A DNA stretch of 28,560 nt from a virus, in the IMG/VR virus record IMGVR_UViG_3300038825_000967, positions 1 through 28,560 of that record, one strand, 5' to 3'. This document shows positions 1-28,556 of the stretch, one piece after another. The translations under genes and the position numbers were made by a program. Within the stretch, counting starts at the first letter, position 1; each line of letters starts with the position of its first letter. A model generated the notes under the pieces. That model was not told where the DNA came from. It searched no databases and was given only the letters and a program-made list of their open reading frames with translations.

Positions 1-95
1 TATTGACCAACAAAACTACTTGTAACTAAAATTATAGCTATAATACTTTTTAGAGATAGAGTAAATTTACTTGATTCTGAAACTTCTGTAGCCAT
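1..95 (-). CDS. 5' fragment of the membrane-anchored coiled-coil gene (duplicate of 28281..28556)
   Basis: This is the first 31 codons (starting MATEVSESSK) of the gene found whole at 28281..28556, cut by the window edge. Its start codon overlaps the stop of the preceding 62-residue gene as TAATG. This shows that the small membrane protein gene at 95..283 lies directly upstream of it in the circular genome. It should not be counted as a separate gene. Confidence 0.9.
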   Translation of the reverse strand, partial: MATEVSESSKFTLSLKSIIAIILVTSSFVGQ

Positions 96-98
96 TAT
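1..98. repeat. Left copy of terminal direct repeat
   Basis: Positions 1-98 are identical to positions 28462-28559. The bases that follow differ (T at 99, C at 28560). The repeat contains the first 95 bases of a gene that is complete at the right end, so it most simply reflects a circular or circularly permuted genome whose ends overlap in the assembly. A true short terminal repeat of the virion DNA is the alternative. Confidence 0.95.
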
Positions 99-283
99 TT
101 TTTCATATTACAAGATTTATCTGCTAACCCTTGACCTATAATTAGAGCTACACCAACAACCAAAAGGCTATTCATTTTTGTTTCACTAATTCCTAAATCT
201 TCTGAAAACATTATAACCATTAGTATAGAGAATCCATACCAGAACTTTCTTGATAAAATTATTTTATTTATTACTTCTTTCAT
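95..283 (-). CDS. Small two-TM membrane protein, holin-like candidate
   Basis: A 62-residue protein that I do not recognise by family. It shows two hydrophobic stretches, about residues 13-30 (FWYGFSILMVIMF) and 39-54 (NSLLVVGVALIIGQG), separated by a short acidic loop, with a charged, lysine-ending tail. Size and topology resemble a class II holin, and the gene opens the cassette leading to the endolysin, so a role as holin, antiholin or pinholin is possible. However, a better holin candidate (3-TM family) lies further along at 26914..27300. It begins two bases after the secreted LDLa-like gene and is coupled to the next gene by TAATG. Function is inference only. Confidence 0.7.
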   Translation of the reverse strand: MKEVINKIILSRKFWYGFSILMVIMFSEDLGISETKMNSLLVVGVALIIGQGLADKSCNMKK

Positions 284-285
284 AT

Positions 286-795
286 TTATTTTAATTTAAA
301 ATTTATTTTTCCATTTTCTATATATAACCCTTTACGTCTATAAATTTCCTTACCCTCAATGTTATATATTTTATTTTTATTTTGAGAGTTTTTAAGTATC
401 TCAATTATACCTGTATTGTCACATGGCATACCAGTTAAACAATCTATATACTCTGTTATAGTTAAGGTATCTATTGTATTTATATACAAAGTATCTATAA
501 CATCTATATACAAAGTATCAGTTATAAATATAGTATCGCCTATATTGTATATATCACATTCTGCTAAAGTTGTTGGCACTGCGTCTGCTTCGTCTGATCC
601 ATCAACACAATCTAACCAGCCATCATTAAGATAAAACAAGTTGTTTAAACCATTAGGCACACACCCATTAGGACTATATTGAGTCCAATTACTCTCATCA
701 TCACCACAATAAAAGCCATTTTGCTCAACGCATAATTCACAATTAGTTTGACTAAAGCCAAAGCTAAATACTAAAAAGAATAATAATTTTCTCAT
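286..795 (-). CDS. Secreted LDLa-like protein with repeat linker and possible T9SS-type C-terminal tail
   Basis: A 169-residue protein with three recognisable parts. Residues 1-16 (MRKLLFFLVFSFGFSQ) form a signal peptide of flavobacterial style. Residues about 22-80 look like a bacterial LDL-receptor class A module: cysteines at 22, 30, 45, 63 and 80, and the calcium-cage motif DGWLDCVDGSDE at 58-69; the cysteine usually just before the DG is missing. A linker follows with three DTLYI/DTLTI-type repeats. The last ~30 residues (IYNIEGKEIYRRKGLYIENG, then KINFKLK) resemble the end of type A type IX secretion sorting domains (G-x-E-I ... GLYI ... G+), though shorter than usual. The likely place is the host cell surface or outside the cell. 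It sits between a barrel-like outer-membrane protein and the lysis genes. A fibre-associated or superinfection role is possible but unproven. Confidence 0.8.
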   Translation of the reverse strand: MRKLLFFLVFSFGFSQTNCELCVEQNGFYCGDDESNWTQYSPNGCVPNGLNNLFYLNDGWLDCVDGSDEADAVPTTLAECDIYNIGDTIFITDTLYIDVIDTLYINTIDTLTITEYIDCLTGMPCDNTGIIEILKNSQNKNKIYNIEGKEIYRRKGLYIENGKINFKLK

Positions 796-797
796 AC

Positions 798-1826
798 CTA
801 AAATATTAAATAGTTAAACCCTAATTTACATTCATAGATAGGCTTTTCCCAATACCTTAAATAAGTACCCTCTATAAATATTCCTAATGACTTTGTTATT
901 TTCCAACCTGTAACAAGTCCTAAATCTAAATCTATAGGTAGTTGTTCATATTCATAACTAAAATCATTTAATCCATAATGATAAGGCATTACATTTACCC
1001 AACTTAATAACCAAAAGTCATTACTATACTTATAATAAGATGCTCCAATTACCGCAGAAAGCTCATATACGTTACCTAATGCGTTTATTTCGTTTCTATT
1101 ATACTCTGCTATAGCTGAACCAAAATAGTGTTTAAAAAACTCATCATTTGAAGTTGCTAATAATTCTCCATTTTTAAACCAGTGAAATCTACCATTAACA
1201 AATTGACTAGAATAACCAAAATCTTCTGCTAGATCAAAAAAACTTTCTTCTCCACTTTCCCAAGTGTCCTCTATTGGGTTGTAGCCATATACCCTGTGAC
1301 TTCTACCGCAAACACCCATTGTAATATCCCAACGCCCCTTGTTTATTCTGTGCCTAGTATCAAATGATGTAAATTGTAAATCTCTAGCTTCATCATTTTT
1401 TACTTGTATTTTTGTTACCCCATTATGTCCTAAATATCTAATCCAAAAATCTTGATTAGTAAATTTTTCAGACCTATGACGGATAAAAGAGTAATTAAGT
1501 AAATACTCCCAACCGCTATTATTACCAATAAGAGTATTATCGCTATAGCTCTGCTCATCACCATAGTACCAACTTTTAATTTTTTGTTCAAAATCAAACC
1601 TAGCGATCTTGCGTATTCCAATAGTAAAATTATAATCGTATGGGTTAATTTGTGTAGTTTCTTCATAACCTTTGTTTATTGCTATAAAATCTTCATCTTC
1701 TACCATGCTTGTATTCATACTCATAGACGTATAAAAAGTAGCGTATTTAAAAAACTGTGCTTGACAAGTTCCTAATCCTAATATGCAAATTATTAGTAAA
1801 GCGTATATATATTTTGATGTTTCCAT
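798..1826 (-). CDS. Outer-membrane beta-barrel-like protein of flavobacterial phages
   Basis: A 342-residue protein starting with a signal peptide (residues 1 to about 23, hydrophobic core YALLIICILGLG, cleavage near QAQ). The rest is rich in alternating hydrophobic and aromatic strands with many Tyr, Trp and Phe residues, and it ends in phenylalanine (LGFNYLIF), which fits the C-terminal signal recognised by the BAM complex. I recall similar proteins (FKYATFYTSM..., NPYDYNFTIGIRKIARFD) in other Bacteroidetes phages, without known function. The start codon overlaps the stop of the fibre gene upstream. Placement between fibre and lysis genes suggests late expression and insertion in the host outer membrane. 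Receptor masking or superinfection exclusion is a guess. Confidence 0.8.
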   Translation of the reverse strand: METSKYIYALLIICILGLGTCQAQFFKYATFYTSMSMNTSMVEDEDFIAINKGYEETTQINPYDYNFTIGIRKIARFDFEQKIKSWYYGDEQSYSDNTLIGNNSGWEYLLNYSFIRHRSEKFTNQDFWIRYLGHNGVTKIQVKNDEARDLQFTSFDTRHRINKGRWDITMGVCGRSHRVYGYNPIEDTWESGEESFFDLAEDFGYSSQFVNGRFHWFKNGELLATSNDEFFKHYFGSAIAEYNRNEINALGNVYELSAVIGASYYKYSNDFWLLSWVNVMPYHYGLNDFSYEYEQLPIDLDLGLVTGWKITKSLGIFIEGTYLRYWEKPIYECKLGFNYLIF

Positions 1827-22582: not shown

Positions 22583-23434
22583 TTATGTCGCTTTACAAAA
22601 ACAATCTGTTTCTATATCCATATCTAAATCATTAAATAAAGAAGCCTGTTGTTTATTTATATCGTGCTTATCTTTTACAACTTTAAAAGGTTGTTTTGAT
22701 AATTCTATTAATTGTTCTATACTAAAATTGTTTCTTAAATCAAATCTTGGTAGTTTTTCAGAACTATACTTATTTTCCATATCTAACCACCATTTAGCTA
22801 TACTAGGGTTTTCTTTTATTAATGTAAGCCTTTTTCTTAATGATTTTTTAAAACACAAATCACAATTACCCTCATAATCTTTTAAATCTAAATCAAAACA
22901 TTGTTTATCCCACCAATTACGAATAAAACTACTATCTACTTTTATATCATCACACAAAGGGTATATAATATTTTGTTGTTTAGCAGTATTACTTTTTCTG
23001 TGTCTTTCATCATATCTTATACCCATAGCAGTAATAACTTCTTTATAACCTAAATTTTTTACATATTTATTAATAGGTGTTTGTTTTAATTCTCTTGTGC
23101 AATTACTAGCAAAAACAGTTGGTATAGGATACGCTTTTAACATTTCTTCAAATGGTTCACCATTTCTATTTGCAGTTTTAAAATCTACAACTTTAAAATC
23201 TGTTCCTTTACCTTTTTCTAAATTTATTTTAGCCTCCAACCATACTACGCTTAAATTCCATTCTTTATCGCACCTATCTATAAATTGTAAAGTTTCTTCT
23301 TTTTCTTTTCCTGTGTTAGCAAATACAAATAATTTATCATAATCTTTATACTTATCATAATTATTAAGAAACTGCCCCATAAAAGCAGAGGTTCTACCAC
23401 CACTAAAAGTACAAACTAATAATTTATCTTTCAT
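22583..23434 (-). CDS. PP-loop ATPase, PAPS reductase-like
   Basis: A 283-residue member of the adenine nucleotide alpha-hydrolase fold. The PP-loop SGGRTSAFM is at 11-19, followed by VFANTGKEKEETLQFIDRC (37-55) and a downstream GIRYDERHR (138-146). Cysteines at 112 (NCTRELKQTP), 191/194 (NCDLCFKKSLRKR) and 278/280 (DCFCK) could hold zinc or an iron-sulfur cluster. True PAPS reductases reduce sulfate for cysteine; phage forms more likely adenylate another substrate, for example in nucleic-acid modification. DndC (DNA phosphorothioation) and IbrA are relatives of this type. A ParB-like protein is encoded nearby, as in the IbrA/IbrB pair. The substrate cannot be read from the sequence. Confidence 0.82.
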   Translation of the reverse strand: MKDKLLVCTFSGGRTSAFMGQFLNNYDKYKDYDKLFVFANTGKEKEETLQFIDRCDKEWNLSVVWLEAKINLEKGKGTDFKVVDFKTANRNGEPFEEMLKAYPIPTVFASNCTRELKQTPINKYVKNLGYKEVITAMGIRYDERHRKSNTAKQQNIIYPLCDDIKVDSSFIRNWWDKQCFDLDLKDYEGNCDLCFKKSLRKRLTLIKENPSIAKWWLDMENKYSSEKLPRFDLRNNFSIEQLIELSKQPFKVVKDKHDINKQQASLFNDLDMDIETDCFCKAT

Positions 23435-26179: not shown

Positions 26180-26951
26180 ATAGTTCCATTAGAAGATTTA
26201 TAGGTAACTTACCATTGTTTAAAACAACAGCACAACCAATAGCTTGTTTTTTAAAATTTTTAGCATAGGCTGCTGCATAGCTTTTATTGTTTATACCTAC
26301 CCCTGTTTGACAAGCAAAAACTCTAAATTTTTTTCCAACTAACCATCTTACATACGCTTCTGTATGAGTATGACCACAAACGCTTGACATCATATTATTT
26401 TTTGCTTTTGTAAAAGCCTGTCCTCCCTCCCCGTGTTCATACAATACATTGTCATATATAACACTTTCTACCCAATTCCAATCAGGAGTTCCTAAAACGT
26501 CATTATAACTTTTAATCCAAGCACTTGGTATTCCTCCTGTCATACTTTTACGGGCAGCCATTCTATCGTGATTTCCAATACAAACATCTATACCATTTGG
26601 TACTGTTTTATTGTTGAATGCATTATACCATCTACTAATTCTTTTTATAGCTAATTTTAATTCGTTACCAGCAGACAAACCATCAGGATCAGGTTCGTGA
26701 TAACTAAACCCGTGCGAATCAATACAATCTCCTATGAATATTACTTGATTGCAATTATATTTATGATATTGATCTATACAAAAATCTAAATACTTGTCAA
26801 GACAAAAAGGTTCGTGTAAATCTCCTATTACTAAAATATTTCTTTTAGTATTGTTTCTTTTGTCTTTTATTAAATCGTGTTCTGCTTTAGTTAGCCTAAG
26901 TCTATAATCTTTTTTAATTTTTTTTGAGTTTTTCCACACTTCTACCACCAA
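26178..26951 (-). CDS. Calcineurin-like metallophosphoesterase
   Basis: A 257-residue enzyme with the full metal-binding set: GDLH (43-46), GDCID (74-78), GNHD (126-129), a His at EHGEGG (173) and GHTHTE (193-198). The fold uses two metal ions and hydrolyses phosphomono- or diesters; the substrate is unknown. The N-terminal ~38 residues (WKNSKKIKKDYRLRLTKAEH ...) are basic and lie partly over the holin gene (38-bp overlap); there is no later Met before the catalytic core, so this start is likely. It is the last gene of the leftward programme, downstream of holin and endolysin. DNA/RNA or nucleotide turnover is as likely as a cell-wall role. Confidence 0.88.
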   Translation of the reverse strand: MVVEVWKNSKKIKKDYRLRLTKAEHDLIKDKRNNTKRNILVIGDLHEPFCLDKYLDFCIDQYHKYNCNQVIFIGDCIDSHGFSYHEPDPDGLSAGNELKLAIKRISRWYNAFNNKTVPNGIDVCIGNHDRMAARKSMTGGIPSAWIKSYNDVLGTPDWNWVESVIYDNVLYEHGEGGQAFTKAKNNMMSSVCGHTHTEAYVRWLVGKKFRVFACQTGVGINNKSYAAAYAKNFKKQAIGCAVVLNNGKLPINLLMEL

Positions 26952-27300
26952 AGTATGCTCCTATCACCGTTATTAATGTAAGTTGTAGTAAGTCTGTCCA
27001 TTTATCTGCTACATCAAAAGCTATAGAACCGCTATCTATAAATACAAGTAGCATAGTACAAACTATAAGGAATATTAAAACAAGTGGTCTTACTGATCGT
27101 GTTAGTATATTACCATTTGCGTCTGCTTCCCAACGTGCAGTAATATTTTTTTCTAACTCTATTTTATAAGAGTTCATTATTTCTTTTAGCTTTGCTTTAG
27201 CATTTAGCTTTTCTTCTTTGCTTGTTATGACATTATCTAAAATCTCACCAACACCGTCTATAACCTTTTCAGTTCCTAATATGTTTTTAAATATCCCCAT
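26914..27300 (-). CDS. Holin of the 3-TM (gene-transfer-release) type
   Basis: A 128-residue membrane protein from ATG 27300 (MGIFKNILGTEKVID...); an ATG at 27312 would add four residues. A helical N-terminal part (SKEEKLNAKAKLKEIMNSYK) precedes the family signature R-W-E-A-D ... L-T-R-S-V-R-P (ARWEADANGNILTRSVRPLV), then two to three membrane helices (LVLIFLIVCTMLLVFI; LLQLTLITVIGAYFGGRS) and a KKN tail. It would form the inner-membrane lesion that starts lysis. It overlaps the endolysin stop by 14 bp and the metallophosphoesterase gene by 38 bp. Confidence 0.85.
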   Translation of the reverse strand: MGIFKNILGTEKVIDGVGEILDNVITSKEEKLNAKAKLKEIMNSYKIELEKNITARWEADANGNILTRSVRPLVLIFLIVCTMLLVFIDSGSIAFDVADKWTDLLQLTLITVIGAYFGGRSVEKLKKN

Positions 27301-27904
27301 AAATATCTTCACTATTAATTAATGTATAAGTAAACTTGTTACCCCAAATTGCCTCAGCTTTATAACAAGCAAATATAAATTCTTCCCAATCGTCATTACT
27401 TGCTATTACTTGACAACCTGCCGACCATTTATCTACTTGTGTAGATTTCTTTCCTTTTCTGGCTGTAGCTCTATGTATGTTTATACCAAAATAACCTGTC
27501 TGTGTATTGTTATCATCTAAATCATAACAAGCGTCTTTGTTGTTATCTCTATATACCGTAACCTCTCCCTCTCTTTGACATAAAGCGTCATAGTTTCCTC
27601 TATGTTTATCTATTCTATATGCTTTGTATTGTCCTGGTTTCATACAAGCCACACCCTCTTTTCTCATTATTTCAACTTGTGTCCAATGTCTGCCTGGATC
27701 AGTAGTAGCGTCAAAACTATAGAATTGCCATTCTCCGTTTACTTTATAAGATAGTGTAATTTTATCGTCAAACTTATTTGTAACCTCATCACCTGTAGCG
27801 CTGTTCCTAACGCCCACAATGTTTAAATTATAATCGCCTTTATCAAACCAATTATACCCTTTGTCTTTTACTGTTTCTTCAATAAGTTCTCTAGTTAATT
27901 TCAT
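27287..27904 (-). CDS. L,D-transpeptidase-like (YkuD-type) endolysin
   Basis: A 205-residue protein without a signal peptide. The C-terminal part has the catalytic pattern of the YkuD fold: His144 (GINIHRAT) and Cys164 within WSAGCQV (160-166), spaced as in H...S-x-G-C. The N-terminal half (YNLNIVGVRNSATGDEVTNK, FDATTDPGRHW) is a beta-rich lead typical of phage forms. The role is inferred as cleavage or re-joining of peptidoglycan cross-links at lysis, delivered through the holin gene product encoded next. The start overlaps the thioredoxin-like stop as TAATG. Confidence 0.8.
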   Translation of the reverse strand: MKLTRELIEETVKDKGYNWFDKGDYNLNIVGVRNSATGDEVTNKFDDKITLSYKVNGEWQFYSFDATTDPGRHWTQVEIMRKEGVACMKPGQYKAYRIDKHRGNYDALCQREGEVTVYRDNNKDACYDLDDNNTQTGYFGINIHRATARKGKKSTQVDKWSAGCQVIASNDDWEEFIFACYKAEAIWGNKFTYTLINSEDIYGDI

Positions 27905-28284
27905 TATTCAAATTTACTTATAATTATACTATCTATTTTTTCCTGTACTTGTTTCTTGTTAACATTTAGTTGAAAAAGTAAGTTACCTGTAAATCGGCAT
28001 ACTTCTTGTGAATTGTTAATAACTACTAATGTTGGTAGAACTTCTATGTTATATTTTTCTTGTAGTGCTGTACAAATTCCAATATCTGCTTTAACAGTAT
28101 TACAATCTTCTAGGTCTTTTAAAAAACTACAAGAGTTTTTATCGTTCCATTTCGCCCAAAATTCTATTACTAATATGCCATTAGTTTTAAGGTATTTATT
28201 TAAAGCTCCCTCACTTGTTATAGTATTTTGGCTTATGGCAACTTGCCCTACCAACAATAGTAGTATGTATTTTAGAAATCTCAT
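27904..28284 (-). CDS. Exported thioredoxin-fold protein with degenerate active site
   Basis: A 126-residue protein. Residues 1-19 (MRFLKYILLLLVGQVAISQ) are a signal peptide. The rest keeps the thioredoxin plan: strand ILVIEFWAKW (37-46), the loop where WCxxC should be (WNDKNSC, 46-52, with only one Cys), the acidic strand KADIGIC and EKYNIEVLPTLVVI with the cis-Pro at 84. Because CxxC is lost it cannot do normal dithiol exchange, so a chaperone, binding or monothiol role in the periplasm is more likely. Similar proteins beside lysis genes are familiar to me from flavobacterial phages. It is coupled to both neighbours. Confidence 0.78.
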   Translation of the reverse strand: MRFLKYILLLLVGQVAISQNTITSEGALNKYLKTNGILVIEFWAKWNDKNSCSFLKDLEDCNTVKADIGICTALQEKYNIEVLPTLVVINNSQEVCRFTGNLLFQLNVNKKQVQEKIDSIIISKFE

Positions 28285-28556
28285 TTTAATTCGTAAACCC
28301 TCTCCTCTATCTTCTCTACTTGGTTTTCTATTTTATTTAGTTTGTCTGCATTTGACATTACTGTTTTGCTAATTAGTTCTAGTTTTAAATCTAATTCAGA
28401 CCTGCTTATTTCTGATTGTGGTAGCCTTTTAGCTTCCTCAATTTCATTTGACAAGACCGCATATTGACCAACAAAACTACTTGTAACTAAAATTATAGCT
28501 ATAATACTTTTTAGAGATAGAGTAAATTTACTTGATTCTGAAACTTCTGTAGCCAT
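28281..28556 (-). CDS. Membrane-anchored coiled-coil protein of the lysis cassette
   Basis: A 91-residue protein: a short polar start (MATEVSESSKFTLSLK), one membrane helix (~17-35, SIIAIILVTSSFVGQYAVL), then a long charged coiled coil to the end (VMSNADKLNKIENQVEKIEE). The layout resembles inner-membrane spanins such as Rz, which bridge to the outer membrane in lysis of Gram-negative hosts, but no outer-membrane partner lipoprotein is evident. Its 5' part is repeated at 1..95. The stop overlaps the thioredoxin-like start. Confidence 0.75.
   Translation of the reverse strand: MATEVSESSKFTLSLKSIIAIILVTSSFVGQYAVLSNEIEEAKRLPQSEISRSELDLKLELISKTVMSNADKLNKIENQVEKIEERVYELK

Follow-up and report, generated by a model that had tools for sequence, protein, structure and literature searches.

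A conserved phage gene encodes a small exported protein in which a signal peptide is followed by a head of LDL receptor class A (LDLa) ancestry and, after a spacer, by a miniature C-terminal tail that also occurs on exported proteins of marine Flavobacteriales. The gene (286..795, minus strand; 169 aa) sits on the lysis side of a 28,560-nucleotide phage sequence, hereafter the window (positions 1 to 28,560 of IMG/VR record IMGVR_UViG_3300038825_000967), directly beside a gene for an outer-membrane barrel partner, OMP342. On balance, we favor an explanation in which this protein is exported, sorted by the host type IX secretion system (T9SS) and, together with OMP342, alters the host surface late in infection.

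Results

A sequence-only reading of the window had proposed a secreted protein joining an LDLa-like module, DTLYI repeats and a sorting-like end, and each of these elements is found in the 169-residue open reading frame, which runs from an ATG at 795 to 286. A signal peptide occupies residues 1-15 (751..795, minus strand) and ends in a GFS|Q-type cleavage site, the calcium-cage module DGWLDCVDGSDE lies at residues 58-69, DTLYI/DTIF repeats come after it, and the type A-resembling tail IYNIEGKEIYRRKGLYIENGKINFKLK closes the protein. We confirmed at least 95 relatives in IMG/VR; together with low regional pN/pS and a constant tail length, they argue that the reading frame did not arise by chance. 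In an alignment of 44 members the layout is constant: a signal peptide comes first, then a Cys-rich head of 65 residues (mean identity 82%), a spacer of DT(I/L)Y repeats (residues 81-114; 454..555, minus strand), an EYIDCxTGxPC knot (residues 115-125; 421..453, minus strand; mean identity 82%) and the tail. By inspection, an N-terminal Sec signal peptide and the strict domain order are kept in 79 relatives, almost all of which show xFS|Q or a similar cleavage site, and family members mostly carry 8-9 cysteines. Whereas the spacer varies from 24 to 129 residues, the stretch after DCxTGxPC measures 42-44 residues in all 79, placing the tail at the extreme C-terminus, as in type A CTDs. In the LDLa part, pN/pS is 0.19; over the final 28 residues it is 0.14, showing that the tail is under strong purifying selection. 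Among cultured phages (INPHARED), we found no relatives of the protein, of a distant member of its family or of OMP342; a single Staphylococcus phage match at E 0.6 was taken as chance. A PHROGs search with the protein returned no meaningful family.

A direct repeat of about 98 bp is common to both printed ends of the window. The sequence is therefore probably that of an entire phage, with the genes at either end lying next to each other. The phage is a tailed Bacteroidota phage, with Nonlabens phages P12024 as its major capsid relatives and Bacteroides phages among its best annotated terminase matches, and the hosts of this widespread marine family are probably Flavobacteriales. Immediately downstream of the LDLa-tail gene, in most close relatives as here, lies TM62, a 62-aa membrane protein (95..283, minus strand). 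Across the circular join, and on the same strand, follow a 92-aa protein with an N-terminal TM and a coiled coil that looks i-spanin-like by eye (28281..28556), an exported thioredoxin-fold protein with no CxxC in its active site (27904..28284), an endolysin-like protein (27287..27904; PHROG 33083) and a holin (26914..27312; GTA_holin_3TM / PHROG 3427). The thioredoxin-fold protein is present in 76 of 80 loci, with the site WAKWNDKNSC here and WNSSNEF or WNSDNSF in relatives. This order, from OMP342 through the LDLa-tail gene, TM62, the coiled-coil and thioredoxin-fold proteins and the endolysin to the holin, holds in phages without a match to the window's portal gene. No lipoprotein o-spanin was recognized by eye in the cassette, and no promoter or terminator near the LDLa-tail gene rose above chance level. 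Elsewhere in the window, a 283-aa protein (22583-23434, minus strand) starts with an SGGRTSAFM-type motif and resembles, by eye, PAPS-reductase or DndC-type ATP-binding proteins.

On its other side, the LDLa-tail gene has an obligate upstream partner, OMP342 (798..1826, minus strand), which encodes an outer-membrane beta-barrel with a signal peptide. In 79 of 80 loci OMP342 stands immediately before the LDLa-tail gene, and the remaining locus is cut off. Viewed from OMP342, the LDLa-tail gene comes 1-4 bases after it in all 28 further loci with enough sequence, and the further loci include contigs of up to 89 kb. Relatives of OMP342 were found in at least 573 IMG/VR stretches, and host genomes yielded only one marginal partial match. 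The structure predicted for OMP342 with fair confidence (mean pLDDT 72.5) is an outer-membrane beta-barrel with an inserted helical segment; a conserved inserted stretch of the family lies around residues 184-250. Fold comparison matched it to monomeric barrels of generic type (Tsx, NanC, KdgM, EstA), and only at Foldseek rank 45 did a T9SS translocon chain turn up. We considered OMP342 as a PorP/SprF or PorV protein and found no profile match to either. Type B CTD proteins with PorP/SprF-like partners (PMC12618676) offer a parallel in that the gene for an exported protein directly adjoins one for an outer-membrane barrel, but in NCBIfam scans the phage tail did not match type B CTDs and OMP342 did not match the PorP/SprF models.

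The head of the protein (residues 16-80; 556..750, minus strand) contains the cysteines C19, C22, C30, C45, C63 and C80. It shares with LDL receptor class A repeats (PF00057) the DGWxDCxDGSDE calcium cage and the positions of Cys I, II, III, V and VI, and the Ca ligands D58, D62, D68 and E69 of this acidic cage are invariant in 44 sequences. Unlike those repeats, it has a longer loop between Cys II and III and does not keep six cysteines in the canonical order, since Asn57 stands in place of Cys IV and an extra Cys, C19, precedes Cys I by three residues. A C19-C80 bond would replace the CysIV-CysVI bond. PF00057 matches 29 of the 44 members, with the best E value, 7e-4, in relatives; the window protein scores 12.7 bits against a gathering score of 24.1, and bacterial proteins sharing the module pass the cut-off at 26.7 and 47.7 bits. 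Every named match in the PDB profile search (21 of 21) is an LDLa-containing protein (best E 0.042). The whole module recurs in two bacterial proteins, L082 from Crocinitomicaceae and L083 from Neomarinimicrobiota, the second of which has the same inserts as the phage module together with all six LDLa cysteines, Cys IV included, and lacks the extra Cys. Given the PF00057 matches in relatives, the PDB profile matches and this six-Cys homolog, the proposed LDLa-like module holds up as a derived one, and judged by its sequence the phage head is a true LDLa derivative. In 299 genomes, the only host protein with the LDLa module is that of Crocinitomicaceae. That protein (L082:9956-13372; 1138 aa) has two LDLa-like modules, PKD and Kazal domains and a TIGR04183/PF18962 tail. 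Structure prediction of the whole phage protein reached fair confidence for the last 40 residues only, and a second comparison of the model with PDB chains gave no match.

If the tail is a sorting signal, it is not one that profile libraries recognize. Neither TIGR04183 nor PF18962 (Por_Secre_tail) matched the window protein, its tail, any of the 44 relatives scanned or the window as a whole, and the tail is thus not a canonical type A CTD. It occupies residues 142-169 (289..372, minus strand), about 28 residues as against 72-75, and has no YPNP start. In common with type A domains (TIGR04183/PF18962), it stands at the C-terminus of Sec-exported proteins and combines a YN(I/L)xGKxI turn, a GxYI strand and a lysine-rich last strand. 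With fair confidence (block pLDDT 75-82), AlphaFold2 gave residues 130-169 a single helix and four short strands, and not the seven-stranded beta-sandwich of type A CTDs. Strands 1, 2 and 5 of that sandwich seem to be missing, and the remainder resembles the beta3-beta4 hairpin (YNxxGKEI) together with the final two strands (GxYI and the K-rich end). In a split-half hhalign comparison with 26 canonical CTDs, the YNxxGKEI half aligned to their beta3-beta4 motif (P 5.6e-5; 0/200 permutations), and the GLYI... half alone was not significant (5/200 permutations). Because the split was designed after the whole-tail result (P 0.0013, with the best null close behind), we treat it as supporting evidence only. 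A near-invariant lysine lies close to the C-terminus of type A CTDs (PMC10994853); all 79 phage tails have a Lys among their last four residues that may be its structural equivalent.

The same short tail is found on host proteins. An HMM made from phage tails only picked up tails of host proteins at E values of 4e-7, 4e-6 and 2e-5 (for 1000 sequences), all at the C-terminal ends of exported marine Flavobacteriales proteins, and the contigs of two host mini-tail proteins resemble ordinary chromosome. Of 299 Flavobacteriales genomes, 17 had matches to a combined phage and host tail profile (18 in all at E <= 1.1e-4), spread over several passenger families. The host proteins that we read are small, almost all have an evident signal peptide, and their tail is at the protein end. 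Outside Flavobacteriales, a search without its own positive control found no mini tails in 395 genomes sampled across the phylum. One passenger family, present in 56 of the 299 genomes, carries the mini tail in 9 cases, a full type A CTD in 11 and another short tail in 4, and the mini tail sits exactly where its siblings bear full TIGR04183 domains. A tree of the passenger domain alone requires at least five tail changes; for the mini tail, at least three are imposed by well supported branches. Two full-CTD siblings match TIGR04183 at 2e-12 and 4e-12; the host mini-tail proteins miss it, so the same miss by the phage tail does not refute a sorting role. The simplest reading of these three host-tail results is that the short tail does the job of the full CTD. 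SprA is encoded in 16 of the 17 genomes with mini tails and type A cargo in all 17, but this co-occurrence is weak evidence because T9SS is nearly universal in Flavobacteriales (29 of 30). For the initial idea of a T9SS-type tail, then, the profile check put forward with it (TIGR04183) came out negative in all 44 members, and the indirect evidence, from host exported proteins that carry the short tail and from the one family in which it replaces full type A CTDs, is good.

Discussion

We propose the following model. Export by Sec to the periplasm is strongly indicated. There, the host T9SS probably reads the mini tail in place of a full type A CTD and so would place the LDLa-like calcium head outside the outer membrane; the tail would be a "mini-CTD" doing the work of a type A signal. 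With somewhat less assurance, the obligate pairing of the genes suggests that the protein pairs with OMP342. The barrel probably enters that same membrane and either anchors the protein or is modified by it. Most likely, the pair would change the surface of the infected cell late in infection, a timing and place that we propose on account of the barrel partner, the export-type tail and the adjacency to lysis genes. As to the benefit, our first choice is receptor masking or superinfection exclusion, which might, more tentatively, keep progeny from being lost on infected cells and debris. Envelope disruption, with the pair preparing the outer membrane for lysis, is our second.

The gene neighborhood also invites an account in which the LDLa-tail protein and OMP342 form a periplasm-facing factor of the lysis cassette that helps to breach the outer membrane, next to the i-spanin-like 92-aa protein and as an unusual stand-in for an o-spanin. 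In that case, the tail would be an outer-membrane or periplasmic attachment element and not an export signal. A cassette order that persists where the portal gene is unmatched, and a cassette in which no lipoprotein o-spanin was recognized by eye, would both fit such a role, but host exported proteins unrelated to lysis carry the same tail in place of type A CTDs, and we consider this account rather unlikely. Position can be read in yet another way, as the gene lies between structural and lysis genes: the protein might be a tail fiber or tip component of the virion whose LDLa head binds the host receptor. Calcium-bound LDLa modules are protein-binding domains, which would suit that task. A Sec signal peptide and mostly 8-9 cysteines are, however, ill-suited to cytoplasmic virion assembly. 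Moreover, in larger phages the gene stays with OMP342 and the lysis genes and not with the window's portal gene, which makes a virion role very improbable.

The tail could instead be a beta-hairpin module unlinked to T9SS, its likeness to type A CTDs being convergent and the host short tails serving some other role, such as dimerization or outer-membrane attachment. Convergence would be compatible with the missing library match and with a significant alignment to canonical CTDs that is confined to the tail's first half. Set against this, the short tail has repeatedly taken the place of full type A CTDs at one and the same position in a single host family, and it stands at the very end of exported proteins; we judge convergence improbable. 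We therefore retain sorting of the LDLa-tail protein by the host T9SS as the preferred reading.

Phage proteins that act on the host envelope have precedents. Llp of phage T5 is a receptor-blocking lipoprotein, and the LDLa-tail protein would resemble it in being exported and in acting on the outer membrane of the host, but it has no lipobox. Closer to the present case is Cryophage, reported in 2020 to encode three proteins with T9SS type A domains (an endoglucanase, a GH39 and a PA14 protein) and for which the authors suggested superinfection exclusion (PMC7468147). In both cases, phage-encoded proteins are proposed to use the host T9SS. The Cryophage domains, however, were annotated as T9SS type A, whereas here an LDLa-like head is joined to a shortened tail that falls below every library cut-off, with a fixed barrel partner. 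The sequence-only reading held that a phage changing its host's exterior by such a route, if the tail works, would be something new; in view of this precedent the T9SS-cargo idea is only partly new, and what the present family adds is the LDLa head, the shortened tail, the barrel partner and its breadth. Within the papers searched, nothing further turned up on LDLa modules in phages or on phage T9SS cargo beyond Cryophage.

If this model is correct, a large uncultured marine phage group routinely sends a protein of its own through the host's outer-membrane export machine, and a class of proteins with a signal of about 30 residues is absent from the type IX cargo lists of marine Bacteroidota. 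Put more broadly, and more speculatively, marine Flavobacteriales may use an unnamed short T9SS signal, the mini-CTD, that current models do not see, and a large phage group infecting them may have adopted it, along with a dedicated barrel partner, so that infected cells expose an LDLa-type binding protein that depends on calcium. The mini tail also offers a natural and compact way to ask which portion of the CTD is read by the T9SS. For HBP35 (gingivalis), the last 22 residues of the CTD sufficed for secretion of GFP (PMC4804311), whereas another study found the overall CTD architecture important; in RgpB, a single CTD point mutation abolished secretion (PMC11285876). The HBP35 result speaks for export by the mini tail; the RgpB mutation, like the three strands that the mini tail seems to lack, speaks against it.

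A second short host tail (..KIVDILGRET....LFYIYDDGTVEKR..) was seen on four proteins, L127, L128, L132 and L136, of the same passenger family as type A CTDs, and may be another unrecognized sorting signal.
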